Below, piece after piece: positions 215 through 14,414 of a DNA stretch of 49,312 bases. Under the pieces are notes generated by a model. It saw only the letters and a program-made list of their open reading frames with translations, did not search any database and was not told where the DNA came from. Source of the stretch: Fibrobacter sp. (GTDB taxonomy: Bacteria > Fibrobacterota > Fibrobacteria > Fibrobacterales > Fibrobacteraceae); NCBI GenBank assembly GCA_024399015.1, contig JAKSIC010000023.1, positions 1 to 49,312 on the forward strand, in the 5' to 3' direction. Made by a program: the position numbers and the translations under genes. Numbering within the stretch: the stretch's first letter is position 1; the number at the start of each line of letters is the position of its first letter.

Positions 215-242
215 AAAACACCGCTTTCGGGCGGTGTTTTTT
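215..242 (+). terminator. Rho-independent terminator
   Basis: A perfect 10-bp stem AAAACACCGC/GCGGTGTTTT with a 6-nt loop runs into a T tract, 9 nt after the stop of the Rpn tail. Confidence 0.9.
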
Positions 243-328: not shown

Positions 329-2035
329 ATGAAAAAGATTTTTGCTCTTACCTTCGCCGCCGCCATGGCATGTGCAACAAGCGCGATTGCTGCAGAATCT
401 ACTTGTACCGATGCGGAGAAAAACTATGGTCCTATTACCATAAAAAAGGATGGTAATGGTAGGTGCGTTGCTATAATCGATGCTGACGGCGATCATCGTA
501 ACGATCCTGTTGTTATCGAAGAACCCGAAGTTGTTGATTCCATCTATTATTTTAGATCCAATTCGGCATCCGGCACAAATCAGACGATTGTTTTACCGTT
601 TGATGTGCCTAGCGGTTGTTTCTTTGATAGTGAAACTGATTTTTATAACATCACCAAAATTGGTCAGGATTCCCAAACGAAAAACTGGCGTGCTTTGTTG
701 GGTAAAGCAATTTCTGTGAAATCTGAAGGACTTGAGGCCAATAAACCCTATGTAATTCGTTTTAAAAATCCGGAAAACAGCAACACTCCAAGACATTTTA
801 GACTTGGTAGTAATAATGGAAAGTGTCAATTCACTTTTAGTACAGTCAATGGTGCTGACACCAGCTTGATCCCTGCGGATACATCCACTGGGTTGAGCGA
901 GGGTTGGACTCTCAAGGGCGTCTATTCAAAGAAAACATGGGCTGATGCGGCTAGCCGAAAAGGAGTCTATGGATTTGCTGGAACGACGAATGGAGCTTCT
1001 GTTGGTGAATTTAAGAAAGCTGGCGAAAATGCATCTGTTCCGTCGCTTCGCGCATATTTGGTTTATGGAAATAATACCAAGGCATTAGCGAAGTCTGCTG
1101 CCGCAACGCTTTCTTCAAATGAGGAATTAGATGTCTTGCCCATGTCTATGGAAGTCCTCGTGGAGGGCGAATGCTTTACTGAAGGTGATGGCATTTTTGA
1201 GGTCAAGATGGTGAACGGCAAGAAAACCGCTTGTATCGATGGCCAGTCTGATGCTCGCTTGCAGACTCTTAGCATCCCTGAAGATGTTGAAGTTGACTCC
1301 GTTGTGTATAATAGGAAGTTTAAACAAGGTGTTCTTTCAACAGTGATGTTCCCCTTTGGTGGTAAAATTCATAGTGTTTTTTATGGAGCTGGATTCTTTA
1401 GAATTGCTGATGTTCAGTATGTGTACGGGGAATGGACTGTTCTTGCTTGGCAGGTGGGTGAAAGTGCTGGTGAAAGTTTAGTTGCGAATACCCCTTATAT
1501 AATCAATCCGTATGAGGCTTCACAGCTTATTGATGGTGAGTATCTTCCGTTTTGTGTAGGTATTGCCAATTCCTGTGCAACATTGAATACAACAACGGGA
1601 AATAAGACTACGACAATAGGATCATGGTCCCTGCGCGGTACTTATGAAAAATTGGAATACGGAAATGCTCCGTTTACAGGTAGTGCCTACGGCTTTGCTG
1701 TAGATGGAAATTCAAGTGGTGTTGTAGCAGGTAAATTTGTGAAGGCAAAAACTGGTGCGAGTGTTCCTCCAATGCGTGCGTATCTGAAGTATGTTGGACC
1801 GGCACTGAAAACTATGGCGAATGCCTCTATTGAAGAGGATTTCCCTGAAACTCTTCGTCTGATGCTTCTGACTAGCGACGGCAATCCTATGGGACTTGGT
1901 CGAATGAACACGCTCACTGGCGAAATCAAGATGGATGACAACGCTTGGTTCGACATGAAGGGCCGCAAGATGAACCACAAGCCCACCGTCAAGGGCACCT
2001 ACTACAACAAGGGTCAAAAGGTTATTATTAAGTAA
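329..2035 (+). CDS. Exported two-repeat protein with a T9SS-like C-terminal tail
   Basis: 568 residues starting with a clear Sec signal peptide (MKKIFALTFAAAMACATSAIAA). The mature part holds two diverged copies of one roughly 190-residue unit (about residues 70-245 and 325-500). Both copies share the order 'VLPFDVP / VMFPFGG', 'L(E/V)ANKPYVIRF / VANTPYIINP', 'GWTLKGVYSKKTW / SWSLRGTYEKLEY', 'GVYGFAG / SAYGFAV' and 'ASVPSLRAYL / ASVPPMRAYL'. The last 30 residues (AWFDMKGRKMN...KGTYYNKGQKVIIK) resemble the 'DxxGRxx...KGxYYxxGKKVVIK' tails used by type IX secretion in the FCB group. It is followed after 7 nt by a small peptide gene and then a kinase-like gene. I know no function for the repeat; a surface protein is the likely role. 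Confidence 0.75.
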   Translation: MKKIFALTFAAAMACATSAIAAESTCTDAEKNYGPITIKKDGNGRCVAIIDADGDHRNDPVVIEEPEVVDSIYYFRSNSASGTNQTIVLPFDVPSGCFFDSETDFYNITKIGQDSQTKNWRALLGKAISVKSEGLEANKPYVIRFKNPENSNTPRHFRLGSNNGKCQFTFSTVNGADTSLIPADTSTGLSEGWTLKGVYSKKTWADAASRKGVYGFAGTTNGASVGEFKKAGENASVPSLRAYLVYGNNTKALAKSAAATLSSNEELDVLPMSMEVLVEGECFTEGDGIFEVKMVNGKKTACIDGQSDARLQTLSIPEDVEVDSVVYNRKFKQGVLSTVMFPFGGKIHSVFYGAGFFRIADVQYVYGEWTVLAWQVGESAGESLVANTPYIINPYEASQLIDGEYLPFCVGIANSCATLNTTTGNKTTTIGSWSLRGTYEKLEYGNAPFTGSAYGFAVDGNSSGVVAGKFVKAKTGASVPPMRAYLKYVGPALKTMANASIEEDFPETLRLMLLTSDGNPMGLGRMNTLTGEIKMDDNAWFDMKGRKMNHKPTVKGTYYNKGQKVIIK

Positions 2036-2042
2036 GGGGACT

Positions 2043-2204
2043 ATGAAAATGATTAAGAAAGAATACGAAGCTCCGAAGATGGACATTGTTGATTTGAAGA
2101 TGGAAGCTCCCTTGCTTGGCGCTTCTGACGGTCCCGAAGGCGTTACCGAATACGATGACGAATTCGGCTGCAACTACAATCCGGAAATGGATCGTAAGGC
2201 ATAA
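2043..2204 (+). CDS. 53-residue peptide, candidate modified-peptide precursor
   Basis: A short gene with a good ribosome-binding site (AAGGGGA, 2034-2040) directly after the stop of the secreted-protein gene; it ends in two tandem stop codons. The product begins MKMIKKEYEAPKMDIVDLK, a leader-like Lys/Glu start similar to the 'MKK.Y.KP.I....' small peptides of Bacteroidetes. It then has 'LLGASDGPEG' and an acidic, aromatic C-terminal third (EYDDEFGCNYN) with one Cys (residue 43), one Ser (28) and one Thr (35). It has no signal peptide and no membrane segment. Its place 9 nt before an HPr-kinase-like gene suggests it is the substrate of that enzyme. Modification as a phosphorylated RiPP is inference; the reading frame itself is well supported by RBS and spacing. 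Confidence 0.7.
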   Translation: MKMIKKEYEAPKMDIVDLKMEAPLLGASDGPEGVTEYDDEFGCNYNPEMDRKA

Positions 2205-2213
2205 TAAAACTGG

Positions 2214-3107
2214 ATGAGTAGTTCTCTGTACAAAGTTGCGGGTCACGTTTTCTCGATCGCATTCGAGAACGAGGCTCTGGCTGCGGAAATGCTTCCGCTG
2301 ATGGGGAACTACGAACCGTTTCAGGTGGAGGCTGGCGACGCTGGCCTTGACCATACATTCGATTTGAAGGTCGTCGCAGATGCACTGGGCTCTGCAGGCG
2401 GCCTTTTTGATTACGTGGTGGAGACCAGTCAGGAAGACGAAGGTCAGACCATCGTTTGCGGGCACACTTTCGACGGCAAGGCTGTTTTCGATTTCAAGTT
2501 CGGCGACAAGCCTGCGGGCCTGCTGATCTGCTCCAATGAATACCGCCAGGCGGAACTTCACTTGTGCGCAACCTTCCGCAAGGCTGGCCTGGATAACGCC
2601 CTGATGGTGCTTTACGCCTTGGCTACGGCTCGTTTGAATACGGTGCTGTTCCATGCCGCGGTGGTGAGCAAGGATGGCAAAGGCTACATGTTCCTGGGCA
2701 AGAGCGGAACCGGCAAGAGTACCCACGCACGCCTATGGCTCAACAACATCGCCGAAACGGAACTGGTGAACGACGACAATCCCGTGGTCCGCATCCAGGC
2801 CGATGGCGCCTGTGTTTACGGCTCTCCCTGGAGCGGAAAGACTCCCTGCTACAAGAATTTGTCCATGCCTCTGGGCGGTGTCGTTTTGCTGAGTCAGGCT
2901 CCCCACAACAAGATTGCCCGCCTGGGTGGCCTGCAGTCTTACGCTGCCATCGTCCCCAGCATTTCCGGCAAGCGCTGGGACGCATCCATTGCCGATGGCC
3001 TCCACGATACGGAAAACAAGATGGCCCAGACCGTTCCTACCTATTACTTGGAATGTCTGCCCGACGCAGCCGCCGCTGAACTCTGCTGCAAGACCGTCAA
3101 GGCTTAA
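2214..3107 (+). CDS. HPr-kinase-like P-loop protein (HprK/PEPCK-type fold)
   Basis: 297 residues. The P-loop GKSGTGKST lies at about residues 162-170 and an Asp pair (LVNDDNPVV, residues 187-188) sits where HprK has its catalytic VADD segment. A conserved 'YGSPWSGKTPCYKN' follows at about 202-214. The first 140 residues are a separate domain without recognised motif. Kinases of this type modify HPr, but relatives in lasso-peptide clusters phosphorylate a precursor peptide. There is no HPr gene nearby; the immediate neighbour is the 53-residue peptide, so a peptide kinase or chaperone-like role is plausible. Similar proteins are known from Bacteroidales. No strong Shine-Dalgarno sequence precedes the ATG. 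Confidence 0.7.
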   Translation: MSSSLYKVAGHVFSIAFENEALAAEMLPLMGNYEPFQVEAGDAGLDHTFDLKVVADALGSAGGLFDYVVETSQEDEGQTIVCGHTFDGKAVFDFKFGDKPAGLLICSNEYRQAELHLCATFRKAGLDNALMVLYALATARLNTVLFHAAVVSKDGKGYMFLGKSGTGKSTHARLWLNNIAETELVNDDNPVVRIQADGACVYGSPWSGKTPCYKNLSMPLGGVVLLSQAPHNKIARLGGLQSYAAIVPSISGKRWDASIADGLHDTENKMAQTVPTYYLECLPDAAAAELCCKTVKA

Positions 3108-4554: not shown

Positions 4555-5670
4555 ATGGCAAAGAAAAAACATTCCTGGAAATCTCCCGCTCTGGCACAGA
4601 GCAACCGTAGCAAAGAAGATAAGCTTCGCGATACCTTGATGCAGATTGTAAGCGGCGAGAGCCGTTTGCTGAATCGTCCGGATGACTTGTACGAAGCAAT
4701 CGCTAACGGCATCGACGATATTGAAAACTTCAAGAATCCCAAGGATCAGCTTGAACTTTTGGCATGGACTCTCCGTGCTGATTTCTGCTCCTTCAAGGTG
4801 GACGACGAAGAAAAGGAATACTGGGACAACCTGTTCTATGATGCAGGTACTTTCTTTGTAGAACTTGCTATTCAGTACGAAGACAAGGATTACGTGGCCG
4901 ACTTGATTCACGACTTGGCTGTGCGTCACGTGGGCGGTGAAGGCCGTTCCGTGGTGTTCCTCAGCTTGGGTGAAATCATGCCGCCGGAACGTTCCTCCAA
5001 GTTGCTGAACGAACTCCTGTCTCAGGAAGACCAGTTCGCTCTTGAAAACCGCGAAGACGTGCTGGACGCTATTTGCGATATGGCCGATTCCATCAACGAT
5101 TCTGCCAACTACGCCAAGGCCGCCTTGCTGAAGGATCCGGACAAGAGTAACGCAACCATCATCGACATTGCAAATGCCTACTTCATGGCTGGCGACCTGG
5201 TGCTTGCCAAGCAGTGGATGAACGACGTTAAGAATCCGGGCAACGAAGACGAAGAAGCCTTTATGGATTTGCAGGCAGCCATTGCCGACAAGGAAGGCCG
5301 CAAGTCTGATTGTCTGAAGATTGCTCGCCAGCTTTACGAAACTTATCCGAAGATTATCAACCTGGGCCGCTTGGTTTCTGTGTTGCCCGAAGGCGAAGCA
5401 GACCAGGTTCTCAAGGAACACGAAAAGTTCCGCTGTGGTTCTACCGCAAGCCTGGAATTCATGCAGTTGCTGGCTGCTCTCAAGCGTTACGAACAACTTT
5501 CTGGTTATGTGACCCGTTTTGAAAACGACCTCACCACCATGGATGCCGACGAATTGACGGACTTGGCTGACAGTCTTGAGAAGGATGGCCAGAAGGAACT
5601 TGCCCAGCACATTCGTGACTGGACCGTTGAAGAACCGGAAGAAGCGGAAGCCTTCGACGACAAGGACTAA
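4555..5670 (+). CDS. Alpha-helical repeat protein, function unknown
   Basis: 371 residues, soluble and acidic, with no signal peptide. The first 25 residues are basic (MAKKKHSWKSPALAQSNRSK). The rest is a run of helix pairs typical of TPR-like solenoids, for example 'ATIIDIANAYFMAGDLVLAKQWM' and 'DCLKIARQLYETYPKI', ending in a strongly acidic tail (EEPEEAEAFDDKD). It looks similar to DUF6880-type proteins but I could not confirm this. Its stop codon abuts the stop of the convergent ogt gene with no spacer. Confidence 0.65.
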   Translation: MAKKKHSWKSPALAQSNRSKEDKLRDTLMQIVSGESRLLNRPDDLYEAIANGIDDIENFKNPKDQLELLAWTLRADFCSFKVDDEEKEYWDNLFYDAGTFFVELAIQYEDKDYVADLIHDLAVRHVGGEGRSVVFLSLGEIMPPERSSKLLNELLSQEDQFALENREDVLDAICDMADSINDSANYAKAALLKDPDKSNATIIDIANAYFMAGDLVLAKQWMNDVKNPGNEDEEAFMDLQAAIADKEGRKSDCLKIARQLYETYPKIINLGRLVSVLPEGEADQVLKEHEKFRCGSTASLEFMQLLAALKRYEQLSGYVTRFENDLTTMDADELTDLADSLEKDGQKELAQHIRDWTVEEPEEAEAFDDKD

Positions 5671-6228
5671 TTATTCCAACAGCATTTCCTGAGGAATGGC
5701 GCCTTCTATCACAAGAAGGCGTCTTTTCATATCCAGCCCCAGCCCAAAGCCTACGAGGGCTCCTGCTTTACCAATAACGCGATGGCAGGGGAGAATCAAG
5801 GGGATTGGATTCACGTGGAGCGCGCCACCTACGGCTCGGGTGGCCTTGGGGCTGCCCACCATTTCTGCAATTTCCTTGTAGGAACGTGTTTCGCCGAAGG
5901 GAATTTCCTTCAGGGCCTCCCATACCTTAATCTGAAATTCCGTTCCGTATAGTTTGTACGGAATAGAAAATGACTTTCGCTTGCCGGCCAGATATTCGTT
6001 CAGCTGCAGTACGGCCTTGCGGTAGGCGCGGCTGACGGTGGGAGGCAAGTTGGCTTCGACATCGGCCACTGCGTAGGTACAGGCCTGTACTGCGCTGGGG
6101 CGAACGTCGCTATTGTCTTCGGTAGAATAATTCAGACAGCAGAGTTTTGATTTTTCAAAGACGAAAGTCCACTGGCCCCACAAGTTGCGGTGCCTGATTG
6201 TAGTGAACTGTTCGCCAGAAAAATCCAT
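5671..6228 (-). CDS. ogt: Methylated-DNA--protein-cysteine S-methyltransferase
   Basis: 185 residues. The C-terminal active-site region carries the family hallmark LPCHRVIG with the acceptor Cys at residue 148, preceded by the helix-turn-helix region 'FGETRSYKEIAEMVGSPKATRAVGGALH' elements (split here: SYKEIAEMVG, RAVGGALHVNPIPL). The N-terminal 90 residues form the less conserved ribonuclease-H-like domain. The enzyme transfers alkyl groups from O6-alkylguanine to its own cysteine and is used once. It is downstream of alr with a 28-nt gap, so both are probably co-transcribed. Length fits the Ogt type without an Ada domain. Confidence 0.9.
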   Translation of the reverse strand: MDFSGEQFTTIRHRNLWGQWTFVFEKSKLCCLNYSTEDNSDVRPSAVQACTYAVADVEANLPPTVSRAYRKAVLQLNEYLAGKRKSFSIPYKLYGTEFQIKVWEALKEIPFGETRSYKEIAEMVGSPKATRAVGGALHVNPIPLILPCHRVIGKAGALVGFGLGLDMKRRLLVIEGAIPQEMLLE

Positions 6229-6256
6229 AGGTTTGAACCTCTGCGAAGGCGACTTT

Positions 6257-7480
6257 TTATCGCAGCGGGAATTCCTTGAATTCCTTCACGCCGAATTCCT
6301 GACGCAGGTAGTCCCAGCGAACCAGACGGTTCTTCCAGTAGTACTTGCGGTACAGGCGGCGAGCCACGCGGCTTGTAAGTTCGTACGGAATGGTATGGTG
6401 GTCGTCTGCAACGCTTTCCATGGAAATACGGAAGTCAAGTTCGCCGTTCACCACGTCAACAGTTTCGCCAACCTGAACGTCGGGAATATGGCTCACGTCC
6501 ACCATGGTGGCGTCCATGCAGACGCGTCCCAGAATGGGGCAGAGCTGACCGCGGATAAAGACGAAGCCCTTGTTGTATTCGCCGCGGAGGTAGCCGTCGC
6601 CGTAACCGATAGCGATGGTTGCGATGCGGGTGGGCTGCTGTGCCATCCAGTAACCGCCGTAGCTAACTGTTTCGCCCGGCTTCACATCGTGAATATGACG
6701 GATGGTAGACTTGATCTTCATGACAGGCTTGATGGGCCACGGTGCTGGAGTTGCGCCCATGGGGTTGTAGCCGTACAAGGCAAGGCCCGGACGCACCATG
6801 TCGAAATGGCTTTCGGGGTGGGTGAGGGTGCCTGCAGAACTGGAGCAGTGGCAGATTTCCGGACGGAGACCTTCTGCTTCAAGAACGTCTACCAGGCGTG
6901 CGAAACGCTGGATCTGAATTTCAGTCTTCGGGTTGCCCGGCATGTCGGCGGTTGCCAAGTGAGTGAACATGCCTTCGAACTTCAGGTTCTTCAAGCTGAG
7001 TGCGGCGCGAATATTGTTGAAGTCTTCCGCGTCAAAGCCGTAACGGTTCATGCCGGAATCGATCTTCAGGTGAGCCTTGCAAGTGCAGTTGTTGTCGCGG
7101 AGGAACTGGTCGAATGCCATTGCGGTACGAATATCGGTAATGGCTGCGGTCAGCTGGAATTCAACGAAGTAGGCGAAGTCTGCAGGAGTGCAGGGGCCAA
7201 GCACCAGGATAGGCAAGTCCATGCCGTACTGGCGGAGGATCATACCTTCGCTAATGTGGGCCACGCCAAGGTAGTCTGCACCGCCGAACTTTGCGGCAAA
7301 GGAGCAGGCCAGGCTGCCGTGTCCGTAGGAGTCGGCCTTCACCGGCAAGAGAATCTTGGTGTTGGCGGGAATCTGGCTGCGGATAAATTGAATATTGTTG
7401 CAAAGGGCGTCGAGGTTGATTTCAATCCAGTTGGGGCGCGCAATCTTATTTAAATCGGGAGGGGTAGATAAAAGCTTCAT
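6257..7480 (-). CDS. alr: Alanine racemase
   Basis: 407 residues, slightly longer than the usual 360-380. The PLP-binding lysine is in VKADSYGHG (Lys48). Further family motifs are 'KIDSGMNRYGF', 'CHCSSSAG', 'MVRPGLALYGYNP', the catalytic tyrosine in 'GETVSYGGYW' (about residue 290) and 'IGYGDGYLR'. It converts L-alanine to D-alanine for peptidoglycan in the cytoplasm. A TATATTTC element (7488-7495) lies 7 nt upstream of the ATG and there is no clear Shine-Dalgarno sequence. Confidence 0.95.
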   Translation of the reverse strand: MKLLSTPPDLNKIARPNWIEINLDALCNNIQFIRSQIPANTKILLPVKADSYGHGSLACSFAAKFGGADYLGVAHISEGMILRQYGMDLPILVLGPCTPADFAYFVEFQLTAAITDIRTAMAFDQFLRDNNCTCKAHLKIDSGMNRYGFDAEDFNNIRAALSLKNLKFEGMFTHLATADMPGNPKTEIQIQRFARLVDVLEAEGLRPEICHCSSSAGTLTHPESHFDMVRPGLALYGYNPMGATPAPWPIKPVMKIKSTIRHIHDVKPGETVSYGGYWMAQQPTRIATIAIGYGDGYLRGEYNKGFVFIRGQLCPILGRVCMDATMVDVSHIPDVQVGETVDVVNGELDFRISMESVADDHHTIPYELTSRVARRLYRKYYWKNRLVRWDYLRQEFGVKEFKEFPLR

Positions 7481-7487
7481 GATGCGA

Positions 7488-7495
7488 GAAATATA
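7488..7495 (-). promoter_or_regulatory. TAnnTTTG-like -7 element for alr
   Basis: Read on the minus strand, TATATTTC ends 7 nt before the alr ATG. Last base off consensus. Confidence 0.35.
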
Positions 7496-8070
7496 AATAT
7501 CTACCCACTTTTTGGTTCAGTACATACGAAAAAGGGGCTTGAAAAGCCACCTATTTTGAGCAAACTCACAGAAACGCCTACTCTAAATCGGAATAGAATA
7601 ACTTGCGATAATTTTTAAGGCTCTTTTGTAAACATTGAAAATAAAATGTTGTTCTAAAATTTTTTATCCAGCCCAGTAACCACGCGTGTTTTGTTGTGTT
7701 ACTTTGTTCTAAACTAAGTTTACAAATTTATTGATAAAGTTTTGTTTACTGATCACGACGTTCCTCATGAAATTTTTGTTTGTAGTTTCAAGTTGATCAA
7801 GGAAGATTATTGCTCTTGTGCCGAAATAAGGAGCGGTAACAGAACAGAATCCTAAACGAAAAATCTTGGTCAAAAGTTGATCGCGTCTGAAACACAGCAA
7901 CACGAATCAACTTGGTTGTCTTCTCTCGAATATTGAAAAGTTAGCGCTGGGATTTGCCTCTGCAAAAGCCCATCTCTAATTGTTGCACCCAAAGAAACAG
8001 CTCTTGGGACAAGCTCTTGACTTTAAGGGCTGTTGCTTCCCTATTACCCTGATTACAAACAAACTCTTTT

Positions 8071-8087
8071 TCCCTCGCAAGAGGGGA
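8071..8087 (+). promoter_or_regulatory. Hairpin that sequesters the Shine-Dalgarno sequence
   Basis: TCCCTC-GCAA-GAGGGGA forms a 6-bp stem closed by a GCAA (GNRA) tetraloop. The right arm is part of the GAGGGGAGG ribosome-binding site (8081-8089) of the following gene, so folding would compete with translation initiation. Confidence 0.45.
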
Positions 8088-8101
8088 GGATGGATAAAAT
8101 C

Positions 8102-9067
8102 ATGAAAAACACAAAACAACCCGCAAGGGAAAACAAAAAGGAAAAGCTGGATCCGATTGTAGCTATGCTGCTTCCGGAATCCGATAAGAAGATGGGCGCT
8201 GTGGCTAGTGCCTCTCTCCTTGTCGCACTGTTGCTGTGCTTCTGGGCAACCACGTATGAAGTTCTTATTGATGAAGATATTTTTGAGAAAACTCCTCAAA
8301 TGGATATAACGACCACCATGAACATCATTGAAAAAAAGGAGGAAAAAAAGGTCGAGCCCAAGGAAAAACCGAAACCGAAGCAGACAGTTCCGAGTCGCCG
8401 CCCAGGCAGCGGAGCTAAACAGTCGGGTCGGGGAAATCCGAGGGCTGCGGAAACTCGAGGCGTGTTGAAAATACTTACCGCACAAACCAACAATGCCGCG
8501 AATTCCGTCTACACTCTCATGAACGATAAAAAGTTCGCTCACGATATTGACAAGGTCATCAAGAATACCAATGGCCTTCAGGTAACTGGTAAGACAAGCA
8601 TTACTTCCCGTAGGGGCGTGGTTGACGCCGGCTTCAACGAGGCTATCGCCTCAGGTGGAAGTGGTGGAATTGCTAATGGTTTGGCTGGCTTGATGAATGG
8701 TGCTGGTGCTATCTCTACGAAAGCTATCGGCAAGTTGACTCCTCCTAGGCCGAATGAAATTGATATGGGTACTGGAAATTCGTCCCGTTCTGCATCGGAT
8801 ATTATGAAGGTTGTTCGTCAGCGTACGCCAGGTTTGCGTCACATCTATAATTCTCATCTTAAGAAAAATCCGGGATTCCAGGGAAAGGTGACCTTATCGT
8901 TTACCATTTCTCCTGGTGGTGAAGTGATTACCATTGCCATCGTTTCGTCAACCACAGGCTACGCTGAATTCGATAATGAAGTCAAGAAGGCTGTGTCTCG
9001 TTGGACGTTCAGTAAGGTGAAATCCGGTAATACCACCGTAACGATCCCGTTCACGTTCTCTGAATAA
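8102..9067 (+). CDS. AgmX/PglI-type TonB-like C-terminal domain protein
   Basis: 321 residues from the chosen ATG 8102. The in-frame ATG at 8090 directly abuts the strong SD (GAGGGGAGG), leaving no spacer, so 8102 is preferred although 12 nt is slightly long. Layout: a cytoplasmic basic stretch, one membrane helix (VASASLLVALLLCFWATTY), a Lys/Pro/Glu-rich linker (EKKEEKKVEPKEKPKPK), a Gly-rich middle, and a C-terminal domain of about 90 residues 'IMKVVRQRTPGLRHIYNSHL...GKVTLSFTISPGG' ending 'TVTIPFTFSE'. That domain is the AgmX/PglI C-terminal (TonB-like) fold found in envelope-spanning proteins of gliding and energy-coupled systems. It likely spans the periplasm; no ExbB/ExbD partner is adjacent. 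Confidence 0.75.
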   Translation: MKNTKQPARENKKEKLDPIVAMLLPESDKKMGAVASASLLVALLLCFWATTYEVLIDEDIFEKTPQMDITTTMNIIEKKEEKKVEPKEKPKPKQTVPSRRPGSGAKQSGRGNPRAAETRGVLKILTAQTNNAANSVYTLMNDKKFAHDIDKVIKNTNGLQVTGKTSITSRRGVVDAGFNEAIASGGSGGIANGLAGLMNGAGAISTKAIGKLTPPRPNEIDMGTGNSSRSASDIMKVVRQRTPGLRHIYNSHLKKNPGFQGKVTLSFTISPGGEVITIAIVSSTTGYAEFDNEVKKAVSRWTFSKVKSGNTTVTIPFTFSE

Positions 9068-9132
9068 AAAAGACGTAGTTAGGGTAATGGGGTTTTTGGA
9101 TTTTATTTGGTTTATGGATTGATAAATTTTTT

Positions 9133-9161
9133 GCCGGCGGCTTTTTGCTGTCGGCTTTTTT
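9133..9161 (+). terminator. Rho-independent terminator
   Basis: GCCGGCGGC (9133-9141) pairs with GCTGTCGGC (9147-9155; two G-T pairs) around a T5 loop and is followed by six T. It sits directly upstream of the next promoter element. Confidence 0.8.
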
Positions 9162-9168
9162 ATATTTG
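9161..9168 (+). promoter_or_regulatory. TAnnTTTG -7 element, 5 nt before the start codon
   Basis: TATATTTG overlaps the end of the preceding terminator T tract and ends 5 nt before the ATG at 9174. No Shine-Dalgarno sequence can fit, so a leaderless transcript is likely. Confidence 0.45.
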
Positions 9169-9173
9169 TGCTT

Positions 9174-10289
9174 ATGAAAGATCCTCGTATTACAAAGCTT
9201 GCTGAAAACTTGATCAACAATGCCATTGCCCTGAAGGCTGGCGAAAATATCTTGATTGAAACCACCGACACTCCCGATGAACTGACCACGGAATTACTGA
9301 AGGCAGTTGCAAAGGCTGGTGGTAACGCTTACGTCCATAACTACAGCGGCCGTGTCCGTCGCGAACAGATCAAGTCTGCTTCCGAAGAACAGATGAAGAT
9401 TTCTGCAGACCTGGCTATGGCTGAAATGCAGAAGATGCTGTGCTACATTTCCATTCGCGCTGCGGAAAACGCCATGGAAAACTGCGATATTCCTGGTCCG
9501 CAGATGAAGAAGTACCGCCTTGCAAACCAGGCAGTGCTGGACTACCGCGTGAATAAGACTCGTTGGTGCGTGCTCCGCTGGCCCAATCCGTCCATGGCTC
9601 AGGCCGCCAAGATGAGCACCGAGGCATTTGAGGACTTCTACTTTGAAGCTTGCCTTGCCGATTATCCCCGTATGGCGAAGGCTGCGCAGAATCTGGTGAA
9701 CCTGATGAACCGTACCGACAAGGTGCGCCTGGTTTCCCAGGGTACCGACCTGACTTTCAGCATCAAGGGCATTGGCGCAGTGCCGTGCTGCGGCAACATG
9801 AATATTCCCGATGGTGAAGTCTACACAGCTCCAGTTCGTAACAGCGTAAATGGCGTTATCCAGTACAATACGCCGTCCCTTTACGATGGCAAGCAGTTCG
9901 GTAATGTGCGCCTGGAATTCAAGGACGGCGCTATCGTGAACGCCTCCTGCGAAACAGGCTCCAACGAGGCTCTGAATGCCTTGTTCAATACGGATGAAGG
10001 TGCCCGCTATGTGGGCGAATTCGCAATCGGTTTCAATCCCTATGTGAACTCCGCAATGTGCGACATTCTTTTCGACGAAAAGATCGCGGGCTCCATTCAC
10101 TTTACCCCGGGCCGCTGCTACGAAGACGCGCCTAACGGAAACGTTTCTGCAATCCATTGGGACCTGGTTCTCATCATGCGTCCGGAATACGGTGGCGGCG
10201 AAATCTGGTTCGACGATGTTCTCATCCGCAAGGACGGCAAGTTCGTCATTGATGAGCTTAAGTGCCTGAACCCCGAAGAACTGGCATAG
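9174..10289 (+). CDS. M29-family (aminopeptidase T/PepS type) metallopeptidase
   Basis: 371 residues, typical of the family. It opens 'DPRITKLAENLINNAIALKAGENILIE', as in thermophilic aminopeptidases of MEROPS family M29. Family segments include 'LVSQGTDLTFSIKG', 'NIPDGEVYTAPV', 'EFAIGFNPYVN' and the metal-binding end 'IHWDLVLIMR...GGGEIWFDDVLI'. It should release N-terminal residues from peptides in the cytoplasm using a dinuclear metal centre. The start is ATG 9174 rather than the GTG six bases upstream, because the latter overlaps the promoter element. Its TAG stop lies inside a long inverted repeat (10286-10391). Confidence 0.85.
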   Translation: MKDPRITKLAENLINNAIALKAGENILIETTDTPDELTTELLKAVAKAGGNAYVHNYSGRVRREQIKSASEEQMKISADLAMAEMQKMLCYISIRAAENAMENCDIPGPQMKKYRLANQAVLDYRVNKTRWCVLRWPNPSMAQAAKMSTEAFEDFYFEACLADYPRMAKAAQNLVNLMNRTDKVRLVSQGTDLTFSIKGIGAVPCCGNMNIPDGEVYTAPVRNSVNGVIQYNTPSLYDGKQFGNVRLEFKDGAIVNASCETGSNEALNALFNTDEGARYVGEFAIGFNPYVNSAMCDILFDEKIAGSIHFTPGRCYEDAPNGNVSAIHWDLVLIMRPEYGGGEIWFDDVLIRKDGKFVIDELKCLNPEELA

Positions 10290-10391
10290 TTTATCCATAA
10301 CCGTCGCATTACTGCGTTGTTCGTCCCCTCACGTATGACAAATACGCTACGGGGACTCACGCCTTGTCCTGCTCGGTTCTGAATAAACTAT
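10286..10391. repeat. MITE/REP-like palindromic element overlapping a stop codon
   Basis: Terminal inverted repeats ATAGTTTATCCATAACCG (10286-10303) and CGGTTCTGAATAAACTAT (10374-10391) match at 16 of 18 positions. Inside is a hairpin with GTCCCC (10323-10328)/GGGGAC (10351-10356) and an inner GTAT/ATAC stem. The left terminus contains the stop codon of the M29 peptidase gene. I believe similar extragenic palindromes exist in other genomes but cannot name a family. Confidence 0.6.
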
Positions 10392-10408
10392 AGATGTTGA
10401 AAAAAGCG

Positions 10409-10436
10409 AAAATCCCGCTGAAATGCGGGATTTTTT
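10409..10436 (+). terminator. Rho-independent terminator
   Basis: Perfect 10-bp stem AAAATCCCGC/GCGGGATTTT around TGAAAT, followed by T residues. Confidence 0.9.
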
Positions 10437-10442
10437 GTTTGA

Positions 10443-10550
10443 GGGCAATCTCCCGTGTTTAAATGCGCATAAAATTTTTTGGACGGGCAATCTCCCGCGT
10501 TTAAATGTGCATAAAATTTTTTGGACGCACAATCTCCCGTGGGGAATCGT
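10443..10550. repeat. Tandem repeat, 42-nt unit, two full copies plus a partial third
   Basis: Units 10443-10484 and 10485-10526 differ at only two positions; the third copy (from 10527) keeps 'CAATCTCCCGTG' then diverges. Each unit starts GGGCAATCTCCCG and ends AAAATTTTTTGGAC. No coding sense. Confidence 0.85.
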
Positions 10551-10572
10551 GTGTCAAGTATTTTAGACGACA

Positions 10573-10606
10573 AAAAAACGGCCCGACTTGAATCGGGTCG
10601 TTTTTT
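10573..10606. terminator. Bidirectional terminator, serving asd on the minus strand
   Basis: AAAACGGCCCGA pairs with TCGGGTCGTTTT (one G-T pair) around CTTGAA, with A tract before and T tract after. It lies about 35 nt beyond the asd stop. Confidence 0.85.
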
Positions 10607-10639
10607 AATTGAGGCGCAGAGAGTTTCTGCGCTGCAATA

Positions 10640-11650
10640 TTACAGCAACTCAGCGATCTGGACGGCGTTGAGGGCTGCGCCCTTACGGATCTGGTCGCCG
10701 GTGAGCCACAGGGTGTTGCCGCAATCGTCGGCAAGGTCCTTACGGATACGGCCAACGTAGACATCGTCCTTGCCAGCGCTTTCCAGCGGCATGGGGTAGA
10801 TGTAGTTCTGCGGATCGTCCTTGAGGGTAACGCCCGGAGCGTTCTTGAGAGCAGCGCGGATTTCTTCAACGGAAACCGGCTTTTCAGTTTCGAACCAAAC
10901 AGATTCAGAGTGAGAACGGAGGGAGCTAACGCGTACGCAAGTAGCACTGGTGCGAACATCGGAGTGCATGATCTTGCGGGTTTCGTTGTACATCTTCATT
11001 TCTTCCTTGGTGTAGTCATTTTCAGTCATCTTGTCGATCTGCGGAATGACGTTGTAAGCCAACTGGAAGGGGAACTTGCTGATGTGAGTGGTAGAACCGG
11101 TTTCGAGAATATCCTTGTACTGCTGCTGGAGTTCTTCCATAGCAACTGCACCTGCACCACTTGCGCTCTGGTAAGAGGAGATGCGGATCTTCTTGATGTG
11201 GGAAATCTTTTCGATGGGGTTCAGAACGACAACCATCATGATGGTGGTGCAGTTCGGGTTAGCGATGATGCCGCAACCGCCGTTTTCAGCCTTGTGGAGC
11301 GGAATGTCGCAGGCGTTCACTTCGGGAACGACCAGCGGAACGTTGTCCATCATACGGAAGTAGCTGGTGTTGTCCACAACGACAGCGCCGTGTTCAACAG
11401 CGATGGGAGCGAATTCCTTAGACACTGCTGCGCCTGCGGAAGAGAGAACCAGGTCGACGCCCTTGAATGCGTCTGCGCAAGTGAGTTCAACCTTGAGCTT
11501 TTCGCCCTTGAAGGAGTATTCACGGCCTACGCTACGTTCAGAAGCGAGGAGCTTGAGGTTCTGGAGAGGGAAGTTGCGCTGTTCGAGGATCTTGAGGAGT
11601 TCCTGACCCACGGCGCCGGTAGCACCCATGATAGCTACGTTACGAATCAT
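10640..11650 (-). CDS. asd: Aspartate-semialdehyde dehydrogenase
   Basis: 336 residues from the start MIRNVAIMGATGAVG, which places the Rossmann nucleotide-binding loop at the N-terminus; an upstream in-frame ATG would add 11 unusual residues. The catalytic cysteine is Cys134 in NPNCTT. Other family segments are 'SSAGAAVSKEFAPIAVEHGAVVVDN' parts, 'SYQSASGAGAVAM' and 'RTSATCVRV'. The enzyme reduces aspartyl phosphate to aspartate semialdehyde, the branch point to lysine, diaminopimelate, threonine and methionine. It is the last gene of a probable operon ssb - membrane protein - asd (gaps 16 and 13 nt). Confidence 0.95.
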   Translation of the reverse strand: MIRNVAIMGATGAVGQELLKILEQRNFPLQNLKLLASERSVGREYSFKGEKLKVELTCADAFKGVDLVLSSAGAAVSKEFAPIAVEHGAVVVDNTSYFRMMDNVPLVVPEVNACDIPLHKAENGGCGIIANPNCTTIMMVVVLNPIEKISHIKKIRISSYQSASGAGAVAMEELQQQYKDILETGSTTHISKFPFQLAYNVIPQIDKMTENDYTKEEMKMYNETRKIMHSDVRTSATCVRVSSLRSHSESVWFETEKPVSVEEIRAALKNAPGVTLKDDPQNYIYPMPLESAGKDDVYVGRIRKDLADDCGNTLWLTGDQIRKGAALNAVQIAELL

Positions 11651-11663
11651 AGTTGTGTGATCC

Positions 11664-12611
11664 TTAGTTTTCGTTCTCAACATTCTGTTGAGGTTGGTTG
11701 TTTGATTTTAAATTCTCGATGTCGTTCCAGAAACGGGACAGTGCGGCGTTCATCTGGGCAATCTGGTTACGTGCCTGCTTGTACTGTTTCAGCTGGTCTT
11801 CGGGGTTTTCCTGAAGGGTGTAGTTGTACAGGGAGTAGGCTGCCAGGCGAACGTTCTCGCTGGCTTGGATAAGTTCGGAGTGAGCTTCTGCTGCGCTATG
11901 GGGGTGATAGAGACCCATCACCTTCTTGTTCAGGGCAGTGGCGCTGTTGTTGATTGCCAAGGCCTGGCTGCTGCGAGCTTCGCGTTCAGACTCGGAAATG
12001 TTTGCTGCCAACGGTTCGAACTCGTCGATGGAAGTCATGATGTCGCGCATGCGGCCGATGACTGTTTCTGCGCTAGCAGTGTATTCCTTGAGTCGTTCGG
12101 GAGAGTTTTCGTCCTTGCCGCTAACCTGGTTGGGAGACTTGCTCTTCTTCTTGTCATACAGGATCTTGCCGCCTTCGCCATTTTCGAAGGACTTGATGTA
12201 GTCCTGGTACTGGGCGTTCTGCATTGCAAGTTCGTAGGGGGTGTATTCGGCCACCGGAATGAACGTGGGGCGGTCCCAGTAGGCGATGCCCAGGAAACCT
12301 GCCAGCATGAACACGGAGAGGAAGATGTTGCCGGTCTTGGTGGCTCTGTCCTCGCTGCGAATAGCGTAGATGATTCCGAGGAAGAACAGGCTTGCGAAGG
12401 TGAGCAACAAGCCGCCATCACAGTTGTAGGTGATGTAGGTGTTCTTTGCGAAGTAGAAAACGCAATCCATTGCTACAATGACGATGGAAAGAAGAACGCC
12501 AATGAGCTTCTGGGTGCGAGTGTAGGCCGCTGCCGACTGGAGAATCGCCGTAAAGGTGATTCCAAGAGGCAGCACCATCATCAATGCAATATCTGCGACT
12601 TGTTGATTCAT
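11664..12611 (-). CDS. Four-helix membrane protein with helical C-terminal domain, unknown function
   Basis: 315 residues. The first 120 contain four likely membrane spans (VADIALMMVLPLGITFTAIL, LIGVLLSIVIVAMDCVFYF, GGLLLTFASLFFLGIIYAI, IFLSVFMLAGFLGIAYW). The remaining 190 residues are hydrophilic and largely helical, with a Lys/Ser/Asn-rich linker at about 150-175 and a Gln/Asn-rich end. I recognise no family. It lies between ssb and asd with very short gaps, so it is expressed with them, but nothing in its sequence ties it to either function. Confidence 0.7.
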   Translation of the reverse strand: MNQQVADIALMMVLPLGITFTAILQSAAAYTRTQKLIGVLLSIVIVAMDCVFYFAKNTYITYNCDGGLLLTFASLFFLGIIYAIRSEDRATKTGNIFLSVFMLAGFLGIAYWDRPTFIPVAEYTPYELAMQNAQYQDYIKSFENGEGGKILYDKKKSKSPNQVSGKDENSPERLKEYTASAETVIGRMRDIMTSIDEFEPLAANISESEREARSSQALAINNSATALNKKVMGLYHPHSAAEAHSELIQASENVRLAAYSLYNYTLQENPEDQLKQYKQARNQIAQMNAALSRFWNDIENLKSNNQPQQNVENEN

Positions 12612-12627
12612 CGGTTATAACAGATCG

Positions 12628-13098
12628 TTAGAACGGAAGGTCTTCGTCGCCTTCGGGCATAGGTGCGTCGTATGCCGGAGCGCTAGACTGGCTGTAGCCG
12701 TTGGACTGGTTGAAGTTGCTGCTCTGGTTGAAACCGCCGCTCTGGAAGCTGCCGCCATTCTGGTTGCGCGGAGTCAGGAGCTGGAAGGTATCCATGTTGA
12801 CGTCGGTGCTGTAACGCTTCTGACCGTTCTGGTCGGTCCAGCTACGGTTGGTGAGGGAACCTTCCACATAGAGGGACATGCCCTTGTGGATGCCCAGCTG
12901 TTCGAACACGTCGGCGGTCTTGCCCCAACCAACAATGTTGTGCCAGTCGGTCTGTTCCTTCATTTCACCGTTGTTGTCCTTGTAGCGACGAGAAGTTGCC
13001 AAGGAGAAGGTTACGCGCTTGCGGCCGTTGGGGCTTGCGCTGATGACCGGATCCTTACCGAGGTTACCAATGAGCATCACTTTGTTTAAATATGCCAT
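12628..13098 (-). CDS. ssb: Single-stranded DNA-binding protein
   Basis: 156 residues. The N-terminal OB fold begins MAYLNKVMLIGNLGKDP and includes 'TSRRYKDNNGEMKEQTDWHNIVGWGK', shown here as the segments FSLATSRRYKD and TDWHNIVGWGKTADV. A Gly/Ser/Gln/Asn-rich disordered linker (NQNGGSFQSGGFNQSS...) leads to the acidic tip DEDLPF that recruits replication and repair proteins. It acts as a tetramer on single-stranded DNA. It heads a probable operon with the membrane protein and asd. Confidence 0.95.
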   Translation of the reverse strand: MAYLNKVMLIGNLGKDPVISASPNGRKRVTFSLATSRRYKDNNGEMKEQTDWHNIVGWGKTADVFEQLGIHKGMSLYVEGSLTNRSWTDQNGQKRYSTDVNMDTFQLLTPRNQNGGSFQSGGFNQSSNFNQSNGYSQSSAPAYDAPMPEGDEDLPF

Positions 13099-13265
13099 AA
13101 TTCAATTATCCTATTTTTAATTTTTATTACTGCACGAAAGATAAAAAAAATGAATGTCACTTTTGTGTCAAATCTCAACCCAAAGGGATTTTACACGTAA
13201 AAAACAAAATTTCCGGGATAATTAAACTATTTTTCTGTCGTAAAAACAAAATGTTTAATTTTCGG

Positions 13266-13314
13266 GCCTCGAACCTCGAACCTCGTGCCTCGAACCTCGA
13301 ACCTGGAACCTCAC
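13266..13314. repeat. Heptanucleotide repeat tract (CCTCGAA-type)
   Basis: About seven tandem, slightly varied copies of CCTCGAA lie directly before the NamZ-like start codon, between divergent ssb and the muramidase gene. The tract is open in the frame of the downstream gene but encodes only a repetitive 'SNLEPRASNLEPG' peptide, so I do not count it as coding. Confidence 0.8.
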
Positions 13315-13316
13315 TC

Positions 13317-14414
13317 ATGGTTACACTAGCTTTATCAAATTTCGAAAAGACTTTCCCCGCCGCACTCCGTGGCAAGCGCCTTGGCGCAGTTCTCCATCCG
13401 GCTTCTGTCTGTGCAGACCTGAGCTACACTCTGGATCTCCTGAAGTCCTACGATGGCAAGTTGTTTAAGTTGTCTGCACTGTTCGGCCCTCAGCACGGTA
13501 TCAAGGGCCATACCCAGGACAACATGATTGAGTGGGAAGGCTACACCGATCCCGAAATGGGTATTCCTGTTTATAGTTTGTACGGAGAACACCGCGAACC
13601 TACTCCGGAAATGCTTTCCCATGTGGACGCTCTCCTGGTGGACTTGCAGGACGTGGGCGCCCGTTACTACACCTTCATCTGGACTCTTTACCTGTGCATG
13701 AAGGCTTGCGAAAAGCTGGGCATTCCCGTTGTGGTTGTGGATCGTCCGAACCCAATTAACTGTGTGGACGAAGAAGGCCCTGTTTTGGATCTGAACTATA
13801 CAAGCTTTGTTGGTCTCCACAGCATCCGTACCCGTCATGCCAAGACCATTGGCGAACTGGCGGAACAGTTCAAGGCTGAATGCTTCCCCAAGTGTGAGCT
13901 TTACGTGATGCACATGGAAGGCTATGACAAAAAGATGTGGTACGATCAGACTGGTCTCCCGTGGATTTTGCCCAGCCCCAACATGCCCACCTTGGATACC
14001 GCAATCGTCTATCCGGGTATGTGTCTGTTCGAAGCTACCAATGTGAGCGAAGGCCGCGGCACCACTCGTCCCTTTGAAATTTTCGGTGCTCCGTTTATCG
14101 ATGCCGTGAAGCTTTGCAAGTACATGAACGGCCTCAAGCTGCCGGGCGTCTACTTCCGCGAAAACTACTTCCAGCCCACCTTCCACAAGGGTGCTGGCCA
14201 GATCTGCGGCGGCGCCCAGATTCACGTTCTGGATCGCGACAAGTTCCGCAGTTTCGACATGGCCATAAAGCTTCTGCAGTACATCTTCAACGAATATCCC
14301 AATGATTTCGCCTGGAAGCAGCCCCCCTACGAATACGAATTCCACAAGCTGCCCATCGATATTCTGTTGGGTAACGGAACCTTCCGCAAGGAATTTATCG
14401 AAAACTCGATTTAA
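13317..14414 (+). CDS. NamZ-like exo-beta-N-acetylmuramidase (DUF1343 family)
   Basis: 365 residues from ATG 13317. Family segments are clear: 'LFGPQHGIKGHTQDN', 'GIPVYSLYGEHREPTPEML', 'DALLVDLQDVGARYYTFIWTL', 'VVVDRPNPIN', 'LPWILPSPNMPTLDTA' and 'NVSEGRGTTRPFEIFGAPFI'. DUF1343 proteins include Bacillus NamZ, which removes terminal MurNAc from peptidoglycan fragments. The DUF1343 fold normally carries a signal peptide when exported; here none is seen from this start, so the enzyme may act on recycled muropeptides in the cytoplasm. A longer in-frame start (13251) would only add the repeat-encoded residues. A strong terminator follows. Confidence 0.85.
   Translation: MVTLALSNFEKTFPAALRGKRLGAVLHPASVCADLSYTLDLLKSYDGKLFKLSALFGPQHGIKGHTQDNMIEWEGYTDPEMGIPVYSLYGEHREPTPEMLSHVDALLVDLQDVGARYYTFIWTLYLCMKACEKLGIPVVVVDRPNPINCVDEEGPVLDLNYTSFVGLHSIRTRHAKTIGELAEQFKAECFPKCELYVMHMEGYDKKMWYDQTGLPWILPSPNMPTLDTAIVYPGMCLFEATNVSEGRGTTRPFEIFGAPFIDAVKLCKYMNGLKLPGVYFRENYFQPTFHKGAGQICGGAQIHVLDRDKFRSFDMAIKLLQYIFNEYPNDFAWKQPPYEYEFHKLPIDILLGNGTFRKEFIENSI

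Follow-up and report, generated by a model that had tools for sequence, protein, structure and literature searches.

A putative phosphopeptide system of Fibrobacter and Prevotella resembling the linear polyphosphorylated peptides of Bacillota

Why does a gene for a 53-residue peptide lie between the genes of a secreted protein and of an HprK-type kinase, and could the peptide be the substrate of that kinase? The question is raised by a contig of a gut Fibrobacter sp. (JAKSIC010000023.1), whose 49,312 nucleotides were analysed as a whole and are referred to here as the window. An earlier note, made from the sequence alone, had described the peptide as flanked by a T9SS-like secreted protein and the kinase, and the positions and spacings of the open reading frames confirm this order. 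The three genes form a tight operon, with 7 nt between the stop codon of the secreted-protein gene and the peptide frame and 9 nt between the peptide and kinase frames. Directly in front of the peptide ATG stands AAGGGGACT, AAGGGG being the upstream RBS-type letters.

218 to 242, forward strand: hairpin followed by a T run, ACACCGC-TTTCGG-GCGGTGT-TTTTT, read from the sequence
329 to 2035, forward strand: gene of a 568-residue secreted surface-type protein (SURF) with an N-terminal signal peptide, a repeated 'LPF...TPY...RAYL' domain and a short T9SS-like C-terminal tail
1946 to 2032, forward strand: C-terminal tail of SURF, WFDMKGRKMNHKPTVKGTYYNKGQKVIIK, by motif comparison with short T9SS CTDs (PMC11969387)
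2043 to 2204, forward strand: 53-residue precursor peptide, MKMIKKEYEAPKMDIVDLKMEAPLLGASDGPEGVTEYDDEFGCNYNPEMDRKA, by open reading frame, relatives and precursor HMM
2214 to 3107, forward strand: HprK-like, putative peptide kinase of 297 residues, by sequence searches, orthologue alignment and fold model

Judged from its letters, the hairpin is likely to be the terminator of the preceding gene and to mark the operon boundary. No structured RNA or tRNA was found in the window, a promoter scan of it scored barely above shuffled sequences, and PADLOC gave no match to a defence system.

The kinase had been described as having an intact P-loop and DD pair, and both are indeed present and conserved.

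2697 to 2723, forward strand: P-loop GKSGTGKST, kinase residues 162-170, by orthologue conservation
2772 to 2777, forward strand: metal/catalytic acid pair D187-D188, by orthologue conservation

Together with H147 these residues are invariant or nearly so among 18 orthologues. The AlphaFold model of the kinase (pLDDT 90) matches the PEPCK fold over its whole length with a Z of 15, and HprK as well, which places the protein by model in the PEPCK/HprK fold. In sequence it is far from the characterised peptide kinases, with an E of 1e-7 against the ScmC model, below the cut-off.

The peptide itself contains one Ser, one Thr, one Cys and three Tyr, one Tyr fewer than had been counted. Its relatives suggest the following division.

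2043 to 2117, forward strand: predicted leader, residues 1-25, KKxYxAP...LL, by conservation; the cleavage point is inferred
within 2043 to 2117, forward strand: predicted PqqD/RRE-binding YxxP motif, leader residues 8-11, by conservation and the LppB precedent (PMC13381572)
2118 to 2201, forward strand: predicted acidic core of 28 residues, GASDGPEGVTEYDDEFGCNYNPEMDRKA, pI about 4.05, inferred from LPP geometry
2124 to 2126, forward strand: codon of Ser28, a near-invariant Ser and predicted phosphosite, by precursor alignment

Across the family the leader follows the consensus KKxYxxPxMxVVxxxxQxxLLxxS and precedes a variable, usually acidic core. A search for a conserved residue, proposed beforehand, led to a near-invariant Ser, Ser28 in the window peptide. 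It occurs at Y+19 or Y+20 in 40/43 nonredundant precursors from Fibrobacter and 23/24 from Bacteroidota, compared with 8-10% at control positions. The Fibrobacter figure leaves out one Butyrivibrio peptide that was grouped with this genus in the raw 40/44, and the Ser frequency is somewhat favoured because many loci were retrieved with a profile containing the Ser column. Ser28 is the likely phosphosite, phosphorylation being inferred from this pattern. Fibrobacter precursors also frequently occur as tandem pairs, one core ending in ...P and the other in ...APxxxDxLA, which suggests a two-peptide product.

A phosphopeptide pathway with related components has been reported by Popov et al. (2026), who described linear polyphosphorylated peptides (LPPs) encoded by lppA-K-B-S-D-N in Paenibacillus alginolyticus (PMC13381572). 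There, the HprK-like kinase LppK was shown to polyphosphorylate a single core Ser (S3), the SipW-like peptidase LppS (triad S29/H68/D93) cuts the leader, and LppB was shown to recognise YxxP, with N33 and D70 holding the Pro/Tyr of the motif (PMC13381572). The earlier note saw no other RiPP enzymes near the window peptide. This holds locally, but the same genome encodes such enzymes at unlinked sites, and the suggestion of a minimal system finds no support, since another contig (C1) carries an operon for a SipW-like peptidase, a PqqD-like protein and an MsbA-like ABC exporter, next to an alaS-like gene. PF14907 NTP transferases are encoded on C29, directly after a precursor gene, and on C27. 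Measured against the features that mark LPP clusters, an HprK-like kinase is present in the cluster, and the matches to PF14907 and PF00664/PF00005 exceed their cut-offs and satisfy the requirement for an NTP transferase and an MsbA-like exporter. A leader peptidase resembling SipW/archaeal-type signal peptidases with a Ser-His-Asp triad is likewise found: S34/H76/D91 are invariant, correspond to the SipW-type triad and are kept in the copy of the window genome, with an E of 3e-5 against TIGR02228, below the cut-off. The discrete RRE is represented by the PqqD-like protein, which scores 46.5 bits against PF05402, over the cut-off, and whose invariant N35 and D74 align with N33 and D70 of LppB; direct similarity to the LppB sequence is weak (13.9 bits, E 0.53). 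Separately, the 586-bp 3' end of carB is duplicated on C29 at 99.1% identity and a distance of about 12.8 kb (1-586 and 12831-13416 of the C29 stretch). The copies flank type III restriction-modification genes and a UvrD-like helicase gene, and the stretch between them is probably an integrated defence element.

A peptide frame that was not conserved had been named in advance as a refutation, and the frame turned out to be conserved, with relatives detected by the precursor HMM in 75/111 Fibrobacteraceae genomes. The kinase orthologue is found in 73 of the 111 (one diverged), at about one per genome, the SipW-like peptidase in 73, with two weak matches among these, and the PqqD-like protein in 72; the four genome sets are near-identical. 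As the genomes are related by descent, Fisher values for this co-occurrence are only indicative. At the genus level, presence of kinase and precursor is concordant in 75 of 80 genomes, and the four that carry precursors and lack the kinase are contaminated or 71-90% complete. In G048 (88% complete), kinase, peptidase and PqqD-like protein are present without a precursor match, and G108, from an outlying genus, has no peptidase match. The genes for kinase, peptidase, PqqD-like protein and exporter are contiguous and in this order in 29/40 related Fibrobacter loci, in many of which precursor and nucleotidyltransferase genes lie upstream of the cassette. Kinase homologues mostly without a neighbouring peptide would also have spoken against the idea; a peptide lies in or beside the cassette in 22/41 Fibrobacter loci, but in few Bacteroidota loci, because the precursor genes are dispersed. 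Fibrobacteraceae genomes carry 1-13 dispersed precursors, all of which, as far as gene content can tell, would be served by one enzyme set. In G041 (5551-12783 of the locus stretch), a diverged cassette comprises an NTP transferase, a large secreted protein, a short kinase, a PqqD-like protein and a SipW-like peptidase, and adjoins a Wzc-like gene.

The search for the peptide/kinase pair in Fibrobacter and Bacteroidales, suggested by the earlier note, was extended outside the family. A contig scan turned up at least 584 relatives, of which the best 80 come from Fibrobacter and Prevotella/Bacteroidales at 53-77% identity, largely from rumen or other herbivore-gut samples. Most keep the gene order of the cassette, which is contiguous in the majority of Bacteroidota loci. 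All eight kinase-bearing genomes examined for precursors, seven of them Prevotellaceae and the other G000, have them, one Prevotella reaching 17 when matches with E up to 1 are counted. The rest of Fibrobacterota gave only remote kinase matches. In a kinase tree the 49 Fibrobacter rows form one group (88/87) that two Prevotellaceae rows adjoin (95/94). This suggests a single transfer of the kinase between the phyla, although support is moderate, the direction is unresolved and both outgroup branches are extremely long. A remote cassette is also found on plasmid pNP243 of Butyrivibrio fibrisolvens, where a Cys-rich 57-residue KKAYVKPEL peptide (7145-7318 of the locus stretch) neighbours genes for PqqD, an S24/S26 peptidase, kinase, ABC protein and NTP transferase, beside pss polysaccharide genes.

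Comparative genomics strongly supports the earlier suggestion that a kinase modifies the peptide and that unlinked partners take part, phosphorylation itself being inferred. We consider the peptide to be an LPP-type RiPP precursor matured by a dispersed set of kinase, PqqD-like protein, peptidase, NTP transferase and exporter, with a probability of roughly 0.8; neither phosphorylation nor cleavage nor the product has been observed. It also counts against this reading that its parts are spread over several contigs in the window genome, with joint expression unproven, and that in Bacteroidota a peptide seldom adjoins the kinase. Gene content, conservation, co-occurrence and adjacency are established here and the kinase fold is modelled, while leader binding, phosphorylation, cleavage and export are inferred by analogy with the LPP precedent. 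The PqqD-like protein, encoded on another contig, would bind the KKxYxxP leader, and the kinase would phosphorylate Ser28 just past the LL motif. The soluble SipW-like peptidase could then remove the leader near LL, by prediction within LLGAS, through its Ser-His-Asp triad, the PF14907 NTP transferase may add further decoration to the phosphate, and the MsbA-like protein would export a linear acidic phosphopeptide.

What such a peptide might do is hinted at by the gene in front of it. A domain homologous to SURF is encoded directly upstream of precursors in both Fibrobacter and Prevotella, and the tail of the upstream-gene protein follows the motif W[FY]DLxGRxLxxKPtxxGxYYxNGkxVxVK. SURF has a signal peptide, and its C-terminal motifs B, D and E match by eye, but searches with the tail against TIGR04183, Pfam and NCBIfam gave no match. 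The last 60 residues of a modelled SURF fragment reach a pLDDT of about 93; a fold search with the C-terminal region (mean pLDDT 66.5) gave nothing at E under 0.001 and a best Z of 3.0, so the search says nothing about the fold. A tail protein is encoded directly upstream of the precursor in 53/56 Fibrobacter and 20/27 Bacteroidota cases. At E below 1e-15 the tail occurs in exactly the same 75 Fibrobacteraceae genomes as the precursors, with weak matches in six others. Tail-protein genes and precursors number exactly four each in the window genome, and all are paired: besides the window precursor there are three relatives, a copy with 96% identity on C2 and two remoter ones (C29, C22), each directly behind a secreted-protein gene with the same tail type. 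In Prevotella MA2016 a precursor follows the three strongest tail matches only. Some Prevotella precursor genes are not placed behind a surface-protein gene but immediately precede a lipoprotein gene.

This tight pairing in Fibrobacter, with identical genome sets, is also what one would expect if the peptide, rather than being a RiPP precursor, served the surface protein as an accessory or a signal, for instance as a chaperone or sorting helper, and the kinase regulated this. We regard this as unlikely. RiPP hallmarks seen here are a conserved leader ahead of a hypervariable core, the YxxP motif, an exporter and the PqqD-like and SipW-like partners, and some Bacteroidota precursors lie beside lipoprotein or maturation genes without any CTD protein. 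In the LPP-type reading, each precursor is probably co-transcribed and acts together with the upstream secreted protein, a partnership inferred only from adjacency and co-occurrence. More tentatively still, and with the odds somewhat against it, we propose a two-part surface system of rumen and gut Fibrobacter and Prevotella, in which each phosphopeptide is a dedicated partner (ligand, cap or attached decoration) of the co-encoded T9SS-like surface protein, while one kinase/peptidase/exporter set, acting in trans, processes the full range of peptides for a range of surface proteins.

A phosphorylated lasso-peptide pathway of the paeninodin type (PadeK/PadeN), whose macrolactam synthetase and B2 protease would be encoded at other sites, would share the HprK-like kinase, the NTP transferase and the discrete PqqD-like (B1) protein, and the leader shows a weak likeness to NF033524, the paeninodin family model (12 bits against a cut-off of 27). 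It was rejected on the search for the B2 protease: Transglut_core3 exceeds its cut-off in 0/111 family genomes and has no match at all in that of the window. In the conserved operon the place of this protease is taken by the SipW-like peptidase, and the PqqD-like protein has Asn at the N33 position where paeninodin has Gly. No recurring Asn synthase-like macrolactam synthetase gene was seen at 40 Fibrobacter loci, a survey of loci only and not genome-wide. The lasso pathway seems very improbable. Just as little speaks for a different kinase substrate, such as an HPr-like protein, with the peptide adjacent by chance: the distance from characterised peptide kinases and the many Bacteroidota loci without an adjacent peptide would fit, but the kinase genes are fixed beside those for peptidase, PqqD-like protein and exporter, and precursors accompany the kinase in 71/72 kinase-bearing genomes.

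New in this analysis are the occurrence of the system in Fibrobacterota and Bacteroidota, the one enzyme set for several dispersed precursors and the position of precursor genes behind genes with short T9SS-like tails. A RiPP class described in 2026 as confined to Bacillota is thereby extended, with hundreds of loci, into two phyla of Gram-negative bacteria that are the dominant fibre digesters of the rumen. In these phyla the genes are tied to one class of secreted surface protein, a genomic clue to what role such phosphopeptides might have. The results further offer a predicted phosphosite that can be tested, a motif with which genomes can be mined for precursors, and hosts already in culture, namely Segatella baroniae and other Prevotellaceae isolates. 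No description of the Fibrobacter or Prevotella form was found in the literature searched, the coverage of which is incomplete.

Among known systems, the SynChlorMet cassette is weakly similar in sequence, its ScmC resembling the kinase and its ScmD the PqqD-like protein, but all scores are far below curated cut-offs and its other members were not seen here. Judged by eye, the tail shares with the short-CTD T9SS cargo of Prevotella intermedia (PMC11969387) a Gly-basic motif, a GxY motif, a final NGKxVxxK strand and a length of about 30-60 residues; here, strong matches in Fibrobacteraceae occur only in precursor-bearing genomes, with a few weak ones elsewhere. The LPPs have the same six parts, and the order of the parts and the geometry agree as well. 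Both systems combine a YxxP-leader precursor with an HprK-like kinase, a discrete PqqD-like RRE, a SipW-type peptidase, an MsbA-like exporter and an NTP transferase, both have one conserved Ser soon after the hydrophobic leader end, and the conserved operon of both is without a macrolactam synthetase, as judged here from the 40 Fibrobacter loci. We call the present system LPP-like and do not file it as an LPP member, because it has another leader motif and a common ancestry with the LPP clade is untested. The LPP leader reads YxxPxVLxHQxIxFETxxS with the Ser at Y+18 (PMC13381572), whereas KKxYxxPxMxVV...LLxxS, with the Ser at Y+19/20, has only YxxP and a downstream Ser in common with it and does not qualify as an LPP leader. 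LPPs were described as restricted to Bacillota and located near capsule loci (PMC13381572); the genes studied here belong to Fibrobacterota and Bacteroidota, and their many precursors are dispersed through each genome behind genes of short-CTD surface proteins, with one, possibly unlinked, enzyme set.
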